From the NCBI GenBank assembly GCA_016124745.1, contig WGNC01000008.1, positions 248,001-312,000 on the forward strand: a stretch of 64,000 nt of DNA, in the 5' to 3' direction. The translations under genes were made by a program, and so were the position numbers. Positions within the stretch are counted from its first letter, which is position 1. Each line of letters opens with the position of its first letter. This document shows positions 33,469 to 59,965 of the stretch, one piece after another. The DNA comes from Thiobacillus sp. GTDB taxonomy: Bacteria > Pseudomonadota > Gammaproteobacteria > Burkholderiales > Thiobacillaceae. The notes beneath the pieces were generated by a model. That model was not told where the DNA came from and searched no databases. It saw only the letters and a program-made list of their open reading frames with translations.

Positions 33469-33621
33469 ATGAAATATCTGTCCAGCACCGATCTGTCGTT
33501 CATCCTGGCATGTAGTGCATCCGTCAACGTCAACGCGGCCACGACCGATACCGACAGCACCGGCGCCAGGGCCATCGGCGAATGCGCTGACATCCGCTTC
33601 GACTGCGGGGGTGGCAAATGA
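33469..33621 (+). CDS. Very small exported peptide coupled to phospholipase-D-like gene (tentative)
   Basis: A 50-codon frame with a signal-like start (MKYLSSTDLSFILACSASV, then NVNA) and a hydrophilic, Asp/Gly-rich remainder with two more Cys (GECADIRFDCGGGK). Its TGA overlaps the ATG of the next gene in the 4-bp ATGA pattern (33618-33621), which favours real translation. GAAAGCGGG upstream is only a moderate ribosome binding site. It could instead be a chance frame. Confidence 0.35.
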   Translation: MKYLSSTDLSFILACSASVNVNAATTDTDSTGARAIGECADIRFDCGGGK

Positions 33622-35171
33622 GGTGGCGCGGACTCATGGTTGCGACGCTGGCACTGGTCTTCAGTGGCTGCGCGAGCCTGCCCAGCAATGACGCGCGTAT
33701 TGAATCGCATGCCTTGCAGGCCACGGCATCGACGACCCTCGGGCGACAGAGCCAGGCTGAACCGCAGGCACACCCGGGCCAAAGCGCCTTTCGTCCGCTG
33801 AACAGCGGCGTCGATGCGCTGCTGGCGCGCGTCGTCCTGGCCGAAGCGGCAGAGCGTTCGCTCGATGCCCAGTACTACATCTGGCACGATGACCTGACCG
33901 GACGCATTTTCGCCGATGCGCTACTGCGCGCCGCGGACCGCGGTGTGCGCGTCCGCGTGCTGCTCGACGACGTCGGCGCCCAGGCCAACGACACTAACCT
34001 GCTGATCCTCGATTCCCACCCCAACATCGAGATCCGGCTGTTCAATCCGATCGCCTCGCGCAGCTTCCGCGGGCTCGGCATGCTCGGCGATTTCTCCCGC
34101 GTTAATCGGCGCATGCACAACAAGGCGTTCGTCGCCGACAATCAGGCAGCGATCCTGGGCGGACGCAACGTCGGCGACGAGTATTTCGAGGCGTCCAGCG
34201 AGGTGGCCTTCGGCGATCTGGACGTCCTGACGGCCGGCCCGGTGGTGGCAGAGGTGTCCGGTGCTTTCGACCAGTTCTGGAATGCCCCGTCGTCCTACCC
34301 GATCACGACGCTGCTCGGCCGTGGTGCGGGCAGCGAGGACCTCGCCAAACTGCGCGGCGACCTCGCAGCGTACATCGAAGCGAACCGCGACAGCCCCTAT
34401 GTCACGCGTGCGGGCAGCAGGCTCGCCGAGGAAGCGAACGCGGGACGCTATGACTATTACTGGGGCAAGGCCACGCTGCTCTATGACGATCCAGCCAAGA
34501 TCAGTCGGGCTTCCGACGTCACCGAGGGGCATCTGCTGCCGCAGTTCAAGAAGATCGGTTTGCAGCCACGTCAGCAACTGTTGATCGTCTCGCCCTACTT
34601 CGTCCCGGGCGAGGTGGGCGTGGCCTGGCTGCGCGGACTGGTGGCGAACGGGGTTCGCGTCACGGTCCTGACCAACTCCCTCGCTGCCACCGACGTCAGC
34701 GCAGTGCACTCGGGCTATCAGCGTTACCGCGAAGCGCTGCTGGAGGGCGGCGTCGTACTGTACGAACTCAAGCCCGGCGCCGTTCTTCTCGAAAAAGCCG
34801 ATCAGAAAACCAAGGGCTTCGGTTCTTCACGCGCGTCACTGCACGCCAAGACTTACGTATTCGACCGTAGCGCCGTGTTCATCGGATCGCTCAATCTCGA
34901 TCCCCGCTCGGCCCGGCTCAACACCGAGATAGGCGTGATGTGCGAAAGCGCACCCATGGCTGAGGACATCGCCGGCGGCCTCGAAAAAAAGCTCGACAGC
35001 ATCGCCTGGCGGCTGGAGCGCGTCAGGGATGCCTCCGGAAGTGCGCACATCGAGTGGGTGGAAGCCGGCGCCGAAGGCGAGCGACGGTACACAGAAGAAC
35101 CCGAAGTCAGCACCATGCGCCGTTTCTCGGTCTGGTTCCTCGGGCTGCTGCCGATCGAGTCTCAGCTATGA
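33618..35171 (+). CDS. Phospholipase D-like lipoprotein (cardiolipin synthase C-like)
   Basis: A 517-residue protein with a lipoprotein signal (ATLALVFSGCASLP, Cys about 18). Two HKD active sites are present: HNKAFVADNQAAILGGRN (about residue 166) and HAKTYVFDRSAVFIGSLN (about 408). Overall wording (AQYYIWHDDLTGRIFADALL, LFNPIASR) matches the ClsC/YmdC group, which in E. coli makes cardiolipin together with YmdB from phosphatidylglycerol and phosphatidylethanolamine. Here the lipobox would place it on a membrane surface outside the cytoplasm. No YmdB homologue is next to it. Confidence 0.88.
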   Translation: MRWRGLMVATLALVFSGCASLPSNDARIESHALQATASTTLGRQSQAEPQAHPGQSAFRPLNSGVDALLARVVLAEAAERSLDAQYYIWHDDLTGRIFADALLRAADRGVRVRVLLDDVGAQANDTNLLILDSHPNIEIRLFNPIASRSFRGLGMLGDFSRVNRRMHNKAFVADNQAAILGGRNVGDEYFEASSEVAFGDLDVLTAGPVVAEVSGAFDQFWNAPSSYPITTLLGRGAGSEDLAKLRGDLAAYIEANRDSPYVTRAGSRLAEEANAGRYDYYWGKATLLYDDPAKISRASDVTEGHLLPQFKKIGLQPRQQLLIVSPYFVPGEVGVAWLRGLVANGVRVTVLTNSLAATDVSAVHSGYQRYREALLEGGVVLYELKPGAVLLEKADQKTKGFGSSRASLHAKTYVFDRSAVFIGSLNLDPRSARLNTEIGVMCESAPMAEDIAGGLEKKLDSIAWRLERVRDASGSAHIEWVEAGAEGERRYTEEPEVSTMRRFSVWFLGLLPIESQL

Positions 35172-35257: not shown

Positions 35258-37099
35258 ATGAATATCCCTACACCGTCACCTGAGGAATCGCCGAGCGCAA
35301 CTGCGGACACTGCACCCCGTTATCCTTATGCGGACTACATCCGTGGTAGTGGCAGCGGTGTTTTGCATGTCAGTTATAACGCGCTTGCGCCGCAAATCGA
35401 ATACGCGGCCGATGGCCGGCCCTTGCCGTACCACGCCCCCATGCTGCAACTGCGGCCGAAGGAAGTGGCGCGTCTGCTGCAGCCTTACGTCTCGGTCCGT
35501 TTCATGGACCAGGTGCGTGCGGTGGTGCCCCTGGCCATCTACCTCGCGCTGTTCCAGATTTTGATCCTGCGGCAGCTGGTCGAGGACGCCTGGCTCGTCA
35601 CGGGTGGCATGTTCGCGGTGGTCGTCGGACTGATGTTGTTCATGGAGGGGCTGAAGATCGGCCTGATGCCCTTCGGCACCGTCATCGGCGAACAGCTGCC
35701 GCGCAAGCTGGCATTGCCGCTGGTGCTGATCATCACCTTGTTGCTGGGTATCGGCGTGACCTTCGCCGAGCCGGCGATCGGCGCCCTCAAGATGGCGGGG
35801 CAGATCGTCTCGGTCGAGCGGGCGCCGTATCTGTATGCGTTGCTGAACGAGTGGTCGGATGCCCTGGTGCTGGTGGTGGGCGCGTCGGTCGGGCTGGCCG
35901 CCGTGATCGGCACGCTGCGCTTCCTCTACGGCTGGAGCCTGAAGCCCCTGATCTACTTTTCGCTGCTGCTGGTGATGCTGCCCACGCTGTATATGGCGAG
36001 CGACCCGCAACTGGTGTCGGTGCTCGGTCTTGCCTGGGATGCGGGGGCGGTGACGACCGGGCCGGTGACGGTGCCGCTGGTGCTGGCACTCGGCGTGGGG
36101 ATTTCGGCGGCGGCAGGCAAGGGTAGCGGCGGCCTTGCCGGCTTTGGCATTGTGACCCTGGCCTCGCTGTTCCCGATCGCCGGCGTGCTGTTCCTGGCGC
36201 TCTACGTGGCGTCGGTGCAGTCGCCGGCCGACATCATCGAGGCGGCGCGGCAGGCCGCCGCCGTCGCCGATGCGGGCGTCAGCGCCTGGTATACGCGCAG
36301 CCCGGGCGTCGAGATCGTTGCGGGCGTGCGTGCCATCCTGCCGCTGGTGATTTTCCTGTTCCTGGTGTTGAGCCTGATCCTGCGCGAGCGGCTGGCCAAC
36401 CAGGCGGAAATCTTCCTCGGCATCGGCCTGACCATACTCGGCATGTGCGTTTTCAATCTCGGCCTGACCTACGGCCTGTCGATGCTGGGCAACAGCGCCG
36501 GCAATCTGGTGCCCACCGCATTCATGGAGGTGGCGGGTATAGAGTCGTCGCCCCTTTATCGATACGGCATCGGGCTGACAATCGCGCTGGCGTTTGCCTG
36601 GTTTCTCGGCTTTGGCGCCACCATCGCGGAGCCGGCGCTGTCGGCTTTGGGCATGACAGCCGAGGAACTCACCAACGGCGTGTTCAAGAAGAAGACGCTG
36701 ATCATGGCGGTGTCGACCGGTGTTGCCTGCGGGATCGCGCTCGGTCTCGCCAAGCTCATTTTCGAGCTGCCGCTGGTCTGGTTGCTGGCCGGGAGTTACG
36801 CGGCGGCGGCGGGGCTGACGCTGCTGTCGAGCGAGGCCTTCGTCAACGTTGCCTGGGACAGTGCCGGCGTCACCACCGGCCCGGTCACGGTGCCGCTGGT
36901 GCTGGCCATGGGCCTGGGCTTCGGCAGCGCGACCCAGGCCGTCGAAGGCTTCGGCATTCTGTGCCTGGCATCGGTCGGCCCCATCATCACGGTCCTGGTC
37001 TCCGGACTCTGGTCCAGCTACAAGAGCCGGCGTGAGGTGCGGGCTGCCGCCCAGGCACCGAGCCTGTCCCCACTCGCCACTGCACAGGAGATTCTATGA
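35258..37099 (+). CDS. DUF1538 polytopic membrane protein, putative transporter
   Basis: A 613-residue protein with about twelve TM helices arranged as two homologous halves. Each half carries FAEPAIGAL/IAEPALSALG and AWDAGAVTTGPVTVPLVLA / AWDSAGVTTGPVTVPLVLA, near residues 262 and 531. The TTGPVTVP repeats are the DUF1538 hallmark and probably form re-entrant or substrate-path segments, as in inverted-repeat transporters. An N-terminal cytoplasmic tail of about 75 residues precedes the first half. Substrate unknown. The stop overlaps the next start, and two PII-like genes follow, so activity is probably gated by a cytoplasmic effector. Confidence 0.85.
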   Translation: MNIPTPSPEESPSATADTAPRYPYADYIRGSGSGVLHVSYNALAPQIEYAADGRPLPYHAPMLQLRPKEVARLLQPYVSVRFMDQVRAVVPLAIYLALFQILILRQLVEDAWLVTGGMFAVVVGLMLFMEGLKIGLMPFGTVIGEQLPRKLALPLVLIITLLLGIGVTFAEPAIGALKMAGQIVSVERAPYLYALLNEWSDALVLVVGASVGLAAVIGTLRFLYGWSLKPLIYFSLLLVMLPTLYMASDPQLVSVLGLAWDAGAVTTGPVTVPLVLALGVGISAAAGKGSGGLAGFGIVTLASLFPIAGVLFLALYVASVQSPADIIEAARQAAAVADAGVSAWYTRSPGVEIVAGVRAILPLVIFLFLVLSLILRERLANQAEIFLGIGLTILGMCVFNLGLTYGLSMLGNSAGNLVPTAFMEVAGIESSPLYRYGIGLTIALAFAWFLGFGATIAEPALSALGMTAEELTNGVFKKKTLIMAVSTGVACGIALGLAKLIFELPLVWLLAGSYAAAAGLTLLSSEAFVNVAWDSAGVTTGPVTVPLVLAMGLGFGSATQAVEGFGILCLASVGPIITVLVSGLWSSYKSRREVRAAAQAPSLSPLATAQEIL

Positions 37100-37467
37100 G
37101 CGACAGCAGCATCACCTACCTCACCGATGTGGTCATGATCACCTGCATCGTCACACAAGGTCGCGGCGACGAGGCCATCAAGGTGGCGCGCGAGGCCGGT
37201 GTCGTCGGTGCCCTCGTTTATCATGCGCGCGGCAGCGGGGTGCGCGAACGTCTGGGCCTGCTGGGAATCGCAGTGGAAGCCGAGAAGGATGTGGTCACCA
37301 TGCTTGCCGCAACCGATCAGCGCGACCTCGTCATGCACAATCTGTACACCCAGCTTGGGCTGGACCGGCCGGGGGCGGGCGTGATCTACGCCATGCCGCT
37401 GGACAAGATGGCCACCTACATTCCTGCGGATGAGCGCCAGCGCCTGCAAGCGGAAGCGTTGAAATGA
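37096..37467 (+). CDS. PII-like signalling protein, first of pair
   Basis: A 123-residue ferredoxin-like-fold protein of the GlnB/PII superfamily: VVMITCIVTQGRGDEAIKVAREAGVVGAL (strand-helix), a T-loop region around GSGVRERLGLLGIAVEAEKD, and PGAGVIYAMPLDKMATYI in place of the classical GDGKIF signature. The uridylylated Tyr51 of GlnB is not evident, so classical GlnD control is unlikely. It is coupled by ATGA overlaps to the DUF1538 gene before it and the second PII-like gene after it. By analogy with AmtB-GlnK and SbtA-SbtB it probably binds and regulates the membrane partner. Confidence 0.82.
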   Translation: MSDSSITYLTDVVMITCIVTQGRGDEAIKVAREAGVVGALVYHARGSGVRERLGLLGIAVEAEKDVVTMLAATDQRDLVMHNLYTQLGLDRPGAGVIYAMPLDKMATYIPADERQRLQAEALK

Positions 37468-37838
37468 CCGGGATCGATGCGACGCCGCTCGAAAGCGTGC
37501 GGCTCATCATCTGCGTGCTGCCGGACGACGGCACCGACCGCAGCCTGATCCGCGCCTTGCGCAAGGAGCAGGGGATCGAAGTCGCCGACAGCATCGCCTG
37601 CCGTGGCGTGTCGATGCTGCAGGAGGCAAAAGCCCTGCGGGCCGGGCAACTGCCCGAATCGAACTTCGTCAGACTGCTGCAGATCGTCGTCCCCGAGACT
37701 GCGGCGGATGCGCTGTTCGATTACGTCTATGAGACGGCCCGGATCGGTCGCCCCAGGGGCGGGATCGTCACGCTGAGCCAGGCGATCCATGCCACGCCGT
37801 ATCGGCTTCCGGAGGGTTTGCCCGACGAGACGGATTGA
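37464..37838 (+). CDS. PII-like protein, second of pair
   Basis: A 124-residue paralogous ferredoxin-like protein: VRLIICVLPDDGTDRSLIRAL, then LLQIVVPETAADALFDYVYE, and a C-terminal GRPRGGIVTLSQAI replacing the GDGKIF region. It is strongly diverged from the first PII-like protein. The two could form a mixed trimer or act separately on the transporter; this is inference. It is the last gene of the three-gene coupled operon. Confidence 0.75.
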   Translation: MTGIDATPLESVRLIICVLPDDGTDRSLIRALRKEQGIEVADSIACRGVSMLQEAKALRAGQLPESNFVRLLQIVVPETAADALFDYVYETARIGRPRGGIVTLSQAIHATPYRLPEGLPDETD

Positions 37839-37970: not shown

Positions 37971-39464
37971 ATGGAAAAAATCATACCGCGCTGGGAATGG
38001 CGCTCGTTCGGCCGCAGCTTCGGCAGGGCTGAAGCGCAGTTGGCGGCAATGGCGCCGGAGGGGGTGCAGGAGAGCGACGAGGTCTATCTGCTATCCGGTG
38101 CCGGCGATAATGTGAAGGTCCGGGCGGACCTGATGGACATCAAGGTGCTGCGGGAGGTCAATACAGACGGTCTCGAGCAGTGGACGCCGGTCATGAAGGC
38201 GGGATTTCCGCTTGCGTCGGCCGAGGTGGCAAAGGTGTTCGAATCGCTCCAGCTCCCGGTGCCGGCACTGTCCCGCGCGAACTACACGCTCGACGCGTTC
38301 ATCGATGCGTTCGCCCAGCCGGGCAGTGCGATTCGCAGGGTGAACGTTCACAAGCGCCGGGTCCGCTACACGGTCGGCGGCTGCACGGCAGAACTCTCTG
38401 ATGTGGTGGCAAACGGCAAGCCCACCCGCACGATCGCCGTCGAATCGACGGATGCCGAAGCGGTCATCCGTGCCGTCTGCGAACTCGGACTGGGCGGCTA
38501 CACGAACACCAGCTACCCGCGCGGGCTGGCCGCCTTGGCCGACGATGAACCGGAACGCTACGCCGTCATCGATGCCGGCACCAATTCGATCAAGTTCCAC
38601 ATCGGCGAACGTGAGCTTGACGGGCGCTGGCGCACCGTCGTCGATCGTGCGGAGCTGACGCGCCTCGGCGAGGGACTCGCGCAGCAGGGCGTGATCATCG
38701 ACACCGCACTCGAGCGAACTGCTACCGCGATCGCGGGCATGGCCGATGAAGCGAAGCGGCACGGCGTGCGGGCGATCGCGGCAGTGGGAACGGCAGGCCT
38801 GCGGATCGCCGCGAACGGTGCCGCGGTCGTCGCCGCCATCCAGGCGCGCAGCGGCGTGCAGATCGAAGTGATATCCGGCGACGAAGAGGGCCGGCTGGCT
38901 TATCTGGCAGCCAAATCGGGCCTCGGGCTGAAGACGGGCTCGCTCGTCGTCTTCGATACCGGAGGCGGCAGTTCGCAGTTCACCTTCGGGCACGACTCGG
39001 TGGTGGACGATCGCTTCAGCGTCGAAGTCGGCGCCGTGCGCTACACCGAGCGCTACAAGCTGGATGGCGTCGTGTCGCCTGAAGTGCTGAACGAGGCCAG
39101 GGCGGCGATTGCGGCCGACCTGTCGCGCATCGCCGGGCGCCCGGTTTCCGACAAGCTCGTTGCGATGGGGGGCGTGGTGACCAACATGACCGCGGTCGCG
39201 CACGGGCTCGCCACCTACGATCCGGCTGTCGTCCAGGGCACGATCCTCTACCGCGCCGAGATCGATCGCCAGATCGAGCTCTACCGGTCGCGCGACGCGG
39301 ATGCGCGCCGCTCCATTGTCGGCCTGCAGCCGAAGCGGGCGGAAGTCATCCTCGCCGGCGCTTGCATCGTGCGGACCGTGATGGAGTTGCTGGGCAAGCA
39401 GAGCCTCACGGTGAGTGATCGCGGCCTGCGTCACGGCGTGCTGGCAGAGCGCTTCGATGCTTGA
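37971..39464 (+). CDS. CYTH-like domain fused to Ppx/GppA phosphatase
   Basis: A 497-residue protein. The C-terminal ~305 residues are an exopolyphosphatase/pppGppase domain: AVIDAGTNSIKFHIGE (about 197), TAGLRIAANG, ISGDEEGRLAYLAA, VVFDTGGGSSQF and AMGGVVTNMTAVAHGL. The N-terminal ~190 residues look like a CYTH tunnel fold (VKVRADLMDIKVLRE, EQWTPVMKAGFPL, KRRVRYTVGGCTAELSDV, TRTIAVEST). The usual ExExK entry motif is reduced to WEWRS. CYTH and Ppx domains both handle polyphosphate or nucleoside polyphosphates, so the fusion could bind polyphosphate in one domain and cut it in the other. The domain assignment of the N-terminus is from pattern only. Confidence 0.8.
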   Translation: MEKIIPRWEWRSFGRSFGRAEAQLAAMAPEGVQESDEVYLLSGAGDNVKVRADLMDIKVLREVNTDGLEQWTPVMKAGFPLASAEVAKVFESLQLPVPALSRANYTLDAFIDAFAQPGSAIRRVNVHKRRVRYTVGGCTAELSDVVANGKPTRTIAVESTDAEAVIRAVCELGLGGYTNTSYPRGLAALADDEPERYAVIDAGTNSIKFHIGERELDGRWRTVVDRAELTRLGEGLAQQGVIIDTALERTATAIAGMADEAKRHGVRAIAAVGTAGLRIAANGAAVVAAIQARSGVQIEVISGDEEGRLAYLAAKSGLGLKTGSLVVFDTGGGSSQFTFGHDSVVDDRFSVEVGAVRYTERYKLDGVVSPEVLNEARAAIAADLSRIAGRPVSDKLVAMGGVVTNMTAVAHGLATYDPAVVQGTILYRAEIDRQIELYRSRDADARRSIVGLQPKRAEVILAGACIVRTVMELLGKQSLTVSDRGLRHGVLAERFDA

Positions 39465-42197: not shown

Positions 42198-43877
42198 TCA
42201 GTCCTGGATTTGCCGGGATGACGCGGGCTGGCGTGCCTCGAACGCGGCGACCGCCTGCTCGACGGTGAAGAACATGCGCTCGTGACCCAGGCGTTCCGCC
42301 AGCGGGGTGCGCTTCACCAGTTCCAGCGCCTCCGGGTTGAGCGCGGCAAGCCAGAGCTCGATGCCCTGTTCACGCTGTTTCTCCTCCCCCTCGACCAGCA
42401 TCTTGAGCGCGGTGTATTCGAAACCCGGGATCGCGGAACAGTCGAGCAGGACCACCTTCGGCTCGGCGGCCTTGCCCAAGGCCAGCAGTTTGCTGGCCAC
42501 GTTCGCGGCATTGCCGAAATAAAGGCGGTCCTGGGGACGCACGATGAGCAGGCCCGGAATGGCCTCGTCGTCGGGATGCTCGGGCGAGCGCGGGCGGAAC
42601 ACGTTCGTTCCCGGCTTGCGTCGGAGTTCATCGACGCGTGGATCGTACGCGATGTACATGAGGCTCAACAGCGACAGCACGATGGCGACCACGATGCCCT
42701 TGAGCGTGCCCAGCATCATCACGCCGAGACAGGCGACCAGGGCCCAGCGGAACTCCATCGTGCGCACGTGGCGAATCGCTGCCATCTCCGCCGGGTTCAC
42801 CAGGCTGATCGAGTAGGCGATGACGACCGCAGCCAGCGTGGCGTGCGGCATCAGTGCGAGCACCGGCGCAAGGAACAGCAGCGTGGCGAACGCGACCGCC
42901 GCAACCACCAGCGAGGTGGCCTGGGTCTGCGATCCGGCCTTGAGGCTGACCGCCGTCTGCGAGGTGCCGCCGCCGGCAGGCATCGAACCGATGAAAGCGC
43001 CCGCGGCATTGGCGGCGCCGATGGCCAGCAGCTCGCGGTTCGCGTCGATCGCGGGATCCGTGCGGCGGACGAATGCCCGCGCCGCGGCGATCGACTCGGT
43101 AAAGGAGATCAGCGCGATGCCGGCGGCCGCCGGCCACATCGCCTCGAACAGCGCGGGCTGCGGTAGCACGGGCATCGGAAAGCCACCGTGAATCGCACCG
43201 ACCACGCTCACGCCGGCGGCTTCGAGCCCTGCGATGGCCGAGGCGGCGATGCCCGCGGCCACGGCGAGCAGCGGCGCCGGGGATTTCGGCAGGAAGCGCT
43301 TGGCGAGATAGATGACGGCGAAGGTTGCCAGTGCGACGGCAAGGGTGGCCCAGGACAGTTCCGGGACGTGCTTGAATATCGACAGCACGTCGCGGAAGAA
43401 ACCCTCCTTGTGGATGTGGATGCCGAGCAGCTTGGGCACCTGGTCGGCGACGATGACGAAGCCGACCCCCGCCTTGAATCCGGTCAGCACGGGTTCCGAT
43501 ATGAAGTTGGCCAGGAAGCCGAATCGAAGGACACGCGCGGCCATGAGCATCAGGCCCACGAGGACCGAGAGGGTGGCTGCGGCGGTGAGGGGGTCCAGTC
43601 CCGGGTTGTCGCGCAGCGCTTCGCCGATGGCAGTGGCGCACAGGATCGCGATCGGCGTGGTGGTGCTGACGGAGAGCAGGCGTGAAGTGCCGAGAGCGGC
43701 ATACACCACCATCGGCACCATGGCCGCGAACAGGCCTGCCTGCACCGGCAAGCCGGCAATGGTCGCGTAGGCAAGCGCCTTCGGCACCACCACGGCCGCC
43801 GTGGTGAGGCCGGGTATCAGGTCCGCAGTGAAGGGGCTGCGCCGGGGGGCATGCGGGTCGGACGTTTCGCCGCTCAT
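42198..43877 (-). CDS. SulP-family anion transporter with STAS domain
   Basis: A 559-residue protein with 12-14 TM segments in the SLC26/SulP fold: DLIPGLTTAAVVVPKALAYATIAGLP, NFISEPVLTGFKAGVGFVIV and SFTESIAAARAF, quoted by block, and SMPAGGGTSQTAVS. A C-terminal cytoplasmic STAS domain spans about 435-545 (VVLLDCSAIPGFEYTALKML). SulP members carry sulfate, bicarbonate or dicarboxylates; in autotrophs some serve bicarbonate uptake. The substrate is not decided by sequence here. First gene of a three-gene minus-strand operon. Confidence 0.88.
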   Translation of the reverse strand: MSGETSDPHAPRRSPFTADLIPGLTTAAVVVPKALAYATIAGLPVQAGLFAAMVPMVVYAALGTSRLLSVSTTTPIAILCATAIGEALRDNPGLDPLTAAATLSVLVGLMLMAARVLRFGFLANFISEPVLTGFKAGVGFVIVADQVPKLLGIHIHKEGFFRDVLSIFKHVPELSWATLAVALATFAVIYLAKRFLPKSPAPLLAVAAGIAASAIAGLEAAGVSVVGAIHGGFPMPVLPQPALFEAMWPAAAGIALISFTESIAAARAFVRRTDPAIDANRELLAIGAANAAGAFIGSMPAGGGTSQTAVSLKAGSQTQATSLVVAAVAFATLLFLAPVLALMPHATLAAVVIAYSISLVNPAEMAAIRHVRTMEFRWALVACLGVMMLGTLKGIVVAIVLSLLSLMYIAYDPRVDELRRKPGTNVFRPRSPEHPDDEAIPGLLIVRPQDRLYFGNAANVASKLLALGKAAEPKVVLLDCSAIPGFEYTALKMLVEGEEKQREQGIELWLAALNPEALELVKRTPLAERLGHERMFFTVEQAVAAFEARQPASSRQIQD

Positions 43878-59333: not shown

Positions 59334-59360
59334 GAAAAAAAGCCCCGCCTTGGCGGGGCT
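59334..59360 (-). terminator. Intrinsic terminator of the cold-shock gene
   Basis: On the minus strand AGCCCCGCC-AA-GGCGGGGCT is followed directly by seven Ts. It lies 20 bp after the cspA stop. For icd on the plus strand the stem lacks a T run but could still block read-through. Confidence 0.85.
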
Positions 59361-59380
59361 CTCAGTTTCAGCTCAACAGC

Positions 59381-59587
59381 TCAGCCCTGCGGCTGGATGT
59401 TGGAAGCCTGTTTGCCTTTGGGTCCCTGGCTGACTTCGAAGGAGACCTTCTGACCTTCTTTCAGCGTTTTGAAGCCACTGCTCTGGATGGCGGAAAAATG
59501 TGCGAACACATCCTCGCCGCCGTCATCGGGGGTAATGAATCCAAAACCCTTGGCATCGCTGAACCACTTCACAGTACCTGTTGCCAT
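59381..59587 (-). CDS. cspA: Cold-shock domain protein, CspA family
   Basis: A 68-residue OB-fold RNA/DNA chaperone: [20 protein letters not shown] (RNP1 KGFGFI), [10 protein letters not shown] (RNP2-like) and [15 protein letters not shown]. The strong ribosome binding site AAGGAGGAAG precedes the ATG. Whether it is cold-induced is not shown by the coding sequence; several Csp paralogues usually exist. Confidence 0.95.
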
Positions 59588-59965
59588 TCAAACTTCCTCC
59601 TTGGCGGACACTTAATACAACTACTCAACATAACCGCGAAAAGCAGAAATGCACCCCTTGGGGCGTAAACGCTGGCGGATGACATGACGGCTTGATTTTT
59701 TTGGCCGTCGGTCTGAATTCAAGCGCGCTACCCGGTGATGCCCTGCGGTAATGCCAAACCTGCACGGTTCTTGAAACCAAACTTTTTGCTTTTTACTACC
59801 GCGCATGAGTTTTTACAAGGGGAGAACAGCAAAAAGCAAGGCTCTCTGGCGTGCTGTGGTTTTCATTCAACCTAACCGTGAAATGAGCAGGGGAAGCAAG
59901 GCTTGCTTCAATTGCGGCCTTCCGGGACCCGTTACGTGGGATCTCGCTTCGGGGGATGCGTTAGC
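59588..59965. other. cspA leader and intergenic region before earP
   Basis: The 378 bp include the cspA 5' side, where CCCCTTGGGG (59654-59663) and GACGGC/GCCGTC (59686-59709) can form hairpins; structured leaders are common for cold-shock mRNAs, so a temperature-responsive leader is possible. Toward earP, GGGGGA at 59951-59956 is the likely ribosome binding site. Nothing else recognised. Confidence 0.35.

Follow-up and report, generated by a model that had tools for sequence, protein, structure and literature searches.

A fused DUF1538 membrane protein encoded with two PII-like proteins in a Thiobacillus sp., a candidate PII-regulated ion transporter

Why would a bacterium encode a DUF1538 membrane protein and two PII-like proteins in one tightly joined unit? 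The question is raised by three open reading frames, here called D, B and C, at 35258–37838 on the plus strand of the window, which is the whole 64,000-nucleotide stretch of Thiobacillus sp. DNA that was analysed. The reading frames and a check of the sequence show that the genes are joined by two ATGA overlaps and form one unit. The overlaps and the duplicated TTGPVTVP motif are present where an earlier note, made from the sequence alone, had placed them. We consider it fairly probable that D is a secondary ion transporter of the DUF1538 family, a distant relative of the antiporter UmpAB, and that the PII-type regulators B and C gate it. The features of the unit are as follows.

35258–37099, plus strand: D, fused two-repeat DUF1538 membrane protein (PF07556, E 1e-99), with an UmpA-like N half (residues 82–314) and an UmpB-like C half (residues 357–593)
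35315–35512, plus strand: N-terminal extension of D, residues 20–85, kept in the D-B-C subtype (protein comparison)
36053–36076, plus strand: TTGPVTVP, repeat 1, at the break between model helices 253–265 and 271–285 of D
36872–36895, plus strand: TTGPVTVP, repeat 2, at the break between model helices 526–538 and 544–559 of D
37096–37467, plus strand: B, PII-like protein with an ATGA overlap with D (PF00543 in alignment members, hhalign, profile search)
37228–37257, plus strand: conserved RGSGVRERLG of B in the T-loop region, residues 45–54
37369–37380, plus strand: PGAG of B at the B-loop position, residues 92–95, in place of the canonical PII GDGK
37464–37838, plus strand: C, diverged PII-like protein with an ATGA overlap with B (AF2, Foldseek, VIA, hhalign to B)

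Upstream of the trio lies a phospholipase-D/cardiolipin-synthase-like gene (33618–35171), and downstream a gene for a Ppx/GppA phosphatase-domain protein (37971–39464). The window also carries a sulfate-permease-family gene with a STAS domain (42198–43877) and, on the minus strand, a cspA thermoregulator RNA (59335–59625; Rfam RF01766, 81.9 bits).

D matches DUF1538 over two stretches, with 332.5 bits against a cut-off of 22.6. It also matches the NCBIfam models for UmpA (NF041627; 1e-56, 192 bits) and UmpB (NF041628; 3.1e-49, 167.7 bits), below their equivalog cut-offs of 490 and 500; four ordinary split UmpA/UmpB pairs likewise stay under these cut-offs, at 351–391. In all 35 fused proteins examined, the best model was that of the first split gene for the N half and that of the second for the C half. 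The characterised DUF1538 pair is UmpAB of Halomonas zhaodongensis, described as a heterodimeric Na+(Li+,K+)/H+ antiporter that is active at pH 6.5–9.5 with an optimum of 9.0 (PMC5484666). Homology to this antiporter supports the earlier reading of D as a transporter and, for DUF1538 in general, corrects the statement that no substrate is known, with the proviso that the window subtype differs at the TT-motif. DUF1538 is also listed among pH-adaptation genes in a table of a machine-learning study of growth pH (PMC13255231).

The ion and mechanism of UmpAB cannot safely be transferred to D, because D has TTGP instead of TTST, scores far under the UmpA and UmpB cut-offs, and its model matched no named PDB fold. 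D probably exchanges an alkali cation for protons; a different specificity is possible, since the TT-motif is changed in both repeats. In the model, the TTGP segments stand at helix breaks, one per repeat, and are the likely ion site. The N-terminal extension has 18–40 of 66 residues identical in 29 other long fused proteins and 3–11 of 66 in five short ones; it is a candidate docking segment for the PII-like proteins.

The window's B alone gave a value of 0.012 against PF00543, under the cut-off. PF00543 was matched by 43 of 45 members of the B alignment at E<=1 and was precomputed for 20 of the 120 listed relatives. A profile of 21 B-type proteins retrieved PII structures (best 6.6e-7), and hhalign aligned B with the PII family linked to UmpAB at 99.2% (E 1.4e-19). 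Profile homology thus assigns B to the PII superfamily. The AF2 model of C (pLDDT 87.6) has PII topology and was placed with GlnK/PII by Foldseek and VIA. hhalign related C to B (E 2.1e-16) and to the UmpAB-linked PII family (E 1.7e-7). C is therefore assigned to the same superfamily by homology and predicted fold, and looks like a diverged paralogue of B. The PII-like identity first proposed for both proteins holds, and the structure prediction of C did not bring the counter-evidence that the earlier note had named, a lack of support for a PII-like fold. At least six PII-superfamily genes, B and C included, are carried by the genome.

B and C are nevertheless not canonical. Positions are named as in E. 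coli GlnB (Gln39, Tyr51, Lys90, Arg101, Arg103). Against the genome's own GlnB, positions 39, 51, 90 and 101 are R, A, V and T in the window's B and L, N, I and P in its C. This alignment confirms that neither protein has the GDGKIF signature or Tyr51, as had been noticed earlier. Across the B set, Gly87 (33/34) and Gly89 (34/34) are kept, and Gln39 (2/34), Lys90 (0/34) and Arg101 (0/34) are not; the corresponding counts for C are 17/33, 27/33, 1/33, 0/33 and 4/33. At the Arg103 column, 33 of 34 B proteins have a gap, and the window's C has Arg. For Lys58 of B the equivalence is uncertain: MAFFT shows a gap, while HMMER puts near that site a Lys that is invariant in the 21 B-type proteins. Where canonical motifs would stand, B has conserved RERLG and ATYIP stretches, and C has its own conserved pattern, LPDDGTD with GG at the B-loop position. 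Judged by the GDGK B-loop, Gln39, Tyr51 and Arg101/Arg103, both proteins fall outside canonical GlnB/GlnK, and by alignment most canonical nucleotide-site residues are absent from them. Nucleotide binding is still possible, because the genome's SbtB-like protein also lacks Lys90 and SbtB proteins reportedly bind adenyl nucleotides (PMC10991534).

The DUF1538 loci fall into three subtypes. The first has split UmpA-UmpB genes and one PII gene; both repeats read TTST in 39 of 40 pairs, L084 being the exception. The second, with five examples, is a short fusion with mixed motifs, one PII gene and no extension. The third, to which the window belongs, is a long fusion with the conserved N-terminal extension and two PII-like genes; TTGP stands in both repeats of 26 of 30 long fusions, and the searched pattern is absent from the other four. 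The fused UmpA-like and UmpB-like halves, the extension and TTGP in place of TTST mark the window's D, by sequence, as a distinct subtype. On the question raised in the earlier note, whether one or two PII-like genes follow DUF1538, one is found in most loci seen, usually together with a CBS-pair gene, and two belong to the third subtype. Of 39 DUF1538 loci with UmpAB-linked PII, from which the CBS model was built, 31 have a two-CBS gene no more than 120 bases after the PII gene; the same holds for 0 of 31 D-B-C loci and 0 of 3 mixed loci. Both kinds occur in the window genome, where contig C1 (18720–20928; L016) carries, one after another, umpA and umpB as separate genes, a single PII-like gene and a gene for a two-CBS protein. 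A tree separates long from short fusions, which suggests two fusion events. L084 (2337–4097) combines a split DUF1538 pair carrying TTGP motifs with one B-type PII, and has neither extension nor C; it adjoins the long-fusion group in the tree, where the program warns of long branches, and is a possible intermediate between subtypes.

Because C, apparently a paralogue of B that has diverged, occupies the position of the CBS-pair gene in ordinary UmpA-UmpB-PII loci, control is probably two-input. Tentatively, the ancestral unit may have been UmpA-UmpB-PII-CBS, its CBS-pair regulator later displaced by a second, strongly diverged PII in a subtype with altered ion specificity, so that B and C, each reading a different small ligand, would together set cation/H+ exchange by way of the extension of D. 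A rather doubtful alternative is that B and C form a single mixed trimer, one regulator of two subunits with a single input. In its favour, every D-B-C locus seen has B and C side by side, the E-values above place C nearer to B than to the UmpAB-linked PII family, and the lower conservation of C at Gly87 and Gly89 fits a non-binding subunit; the conserved LPDDGTD pattern and B-loop GG of C may instead mean a separate ligand or partner.

Conservation of the linkage was surveyed across genomes. Of the 398 genomes sampled from the window's phylum, with family f39 over-represented among them, 126 have DUF1538. Loci were taken from 39 of these 126, mostly one per genus and from listed places only, and in 36 of the 39 the next gene 3', on the same strand, is PII-like, at a gap of at most 57 bases except in L033 (215). 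Each genome of the three loci without an adjacent PII gene (L043, L045, L047) has such a gene elsewhere, and at L021 a second system carries the PII gene 5' of the DUF1538 pair. In a second phylum, DUF1538 occurred in 5 of 118 genomes and was directly followed by a PII gene in all five, one of which was found through C and served as the entry point to that phylum. The absence of conserved linkage, which the earlier note had named as counter-evidence, was thus not what was found.

Searches that started from the PII-like genes gave the same arrangement. A scan of 84,980 species genomes for the C pattern, which undercounts because one narrow pattern was used, found 11 loci, all with D, B and C in order on one strand (D is cut by the contig end in two). 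Strong B-type matches (E<=1e-28) occurred in 40 genomes, and all 20 loci fetched, from 20 of these genomes, show the order D-B-C. Among the 26 genomes with weaker DUF1538 scores (best E from 1e-28 to 4e-57, limits set after the list was inspected), 22 had a strong B-type match somewhere; those without one (G172, G236, G269, G281) are 57–89% complete. Ion-channel genes with a cyclic-nucleotide-binding domain were observed near D-B-C loci L058, L060, L061 and L071, Na/H exchanger genes near L042 and L066, and sulfate-permease relatives near L006 (by Pfam) and L008 and L015 (by BLAST grouping only).

The distances of D and C are correlated (Mantel r 0.60, p 0.001). This co-divergence is weakly in line with contact, since for D and B the whole set of 30 loci gave r 0.01 (p 0.48), and r rose to 0.63 once four diverged loci were left out.

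It is unlikely, in our estimate, that B and C control another target, such as gene expression or an enzyme, and that their operon with an ion transporter is historical. PII genes of the UmpAB-linked type stand without DUF1538 in the fetched stretch at 11 loci (L076–L083 and L085–L087), which were fetched because they appeared unlinked; L080 could hide an upstream D, because its stretch begins at the contig edge, and at L079 a CBS-pair gene follows the PII gene. Eight of these 11 genomes carry DUF1538, among them G084, G093 and G116, whose DUF1538 locus has no adjoining PII gene. Against this reading, the genes adjoin in 36 of 39 loci and in the second phylum, in split and fused forms, and have translational overlaps in the window; moreover, PII proteins such as SbtB and GlnK are described as acting on the transporter encoded next door (PMC8352866).

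The genome encodes RuBisCO and, roughly 5 kb from a RuBisCO gene, a separate SbtA-SbtB pair (L106 on contig C43): a gene for SbtA (PF05982, E 8.7e-101) and, after it, a PII-like gene of the SbtB type. That D is a bicarbonate (inorganic-carbon) transporter of autotrophs with B and C as SbtB-like carbon sensors would suit this pair and the RuBisCO, as well as the relatives of B, C or D named from the sulfur-oxidising or nitrifying genera Thiogranum, Thiobacillus, Halothiobacillus, Sulfurimonas and Nitrospira, but is very improbable, as RuBisCO occurs in 17 of 21 strong-B genomes within f39 and in only 1 of 19 outside it (the window's own), UmpAB moves alkali cations, and B lies near the UmpAB-linked PII family in a profile comparison with that family.

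Under gating of an ion transporter by B and C, D would move an ion through the TTGP sites of its two repeats. B and C would assemble as trimers and hold a small ligand in the clefts between subunits, and the state of the ligand would decide whether they dock on the cytoplasmic face of D through their T-loops, perhaps helped by the N-terminal extension. Once docked, they might block transport, or release it.

PII-type sensing is known for nitrogen and carbon uptake, and PII control of a neighbouring transporter is not new. The literature searched yielded no description of DUF1538 paired with PII, of the PII-plus-CBS pattern or of the two-PII subtype; the DUF1538 and bacterial UmpAB papers checked for PII made no mention of it. 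If gating by B and C is true, PII-type sensing also governs a widespread cation/H+ antiporter family, and a testable regulator is at hand for pH and salt homeostasis. Some of the non-canonical genes at present annotated as 'P-II family nitrogen regulator' would gain a role, and two PII paralogues would be seen to serve one transporter. The recurrence of the trio in distant bacteria suggests an undescribed on/off switching of ion transport.

Among known systems, UmpAB shares with D the DUF1538 family and two homologous repeats, UmpA-like first and UmpB-like second, whereas the window has a single fused chain, an N-terminal extension, two PII genes and TTGP where split pairs typically have TTST. 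In E. coli, UmpAB activity came from a clone in which umpB is the last of the described reading frames, so PII is not needed for activity, which counts against the proposed gating; the words PII and P-II are absent from the main text of that paper (PMC5484666). The UmpA-UmpB-PII-CBS loci likewise have DUF1538 followed by a PII-like gene, but they encode one PII and a CBS-pair protein instead of two PII-like proteins. PII trimers are described as blocking transporters, SbtB on SbtA and GlnK on AmtB, with the T-loop entering from the cytoplasmic side, although the same source cites doubt about the in vivo role (PMC8352866). In SbtA-SbtB, as in the window, a PII-like gene whose product has a non-canonical B-loop comes after the transporter gene; the differences are that SbtA belongs to PF05982, not PF07556, and that there is one PII gene. 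AmtB-GlnK shares the encoding of a PII-type protein beside a membrane transporter, and T-loop gating of D by B and C is presumed from this analogy. The genome's own GlnB/GlnK keep GRQKG, Tyr51, GDGKIF and RIRTG, whereas B and C have diverged from all of these.
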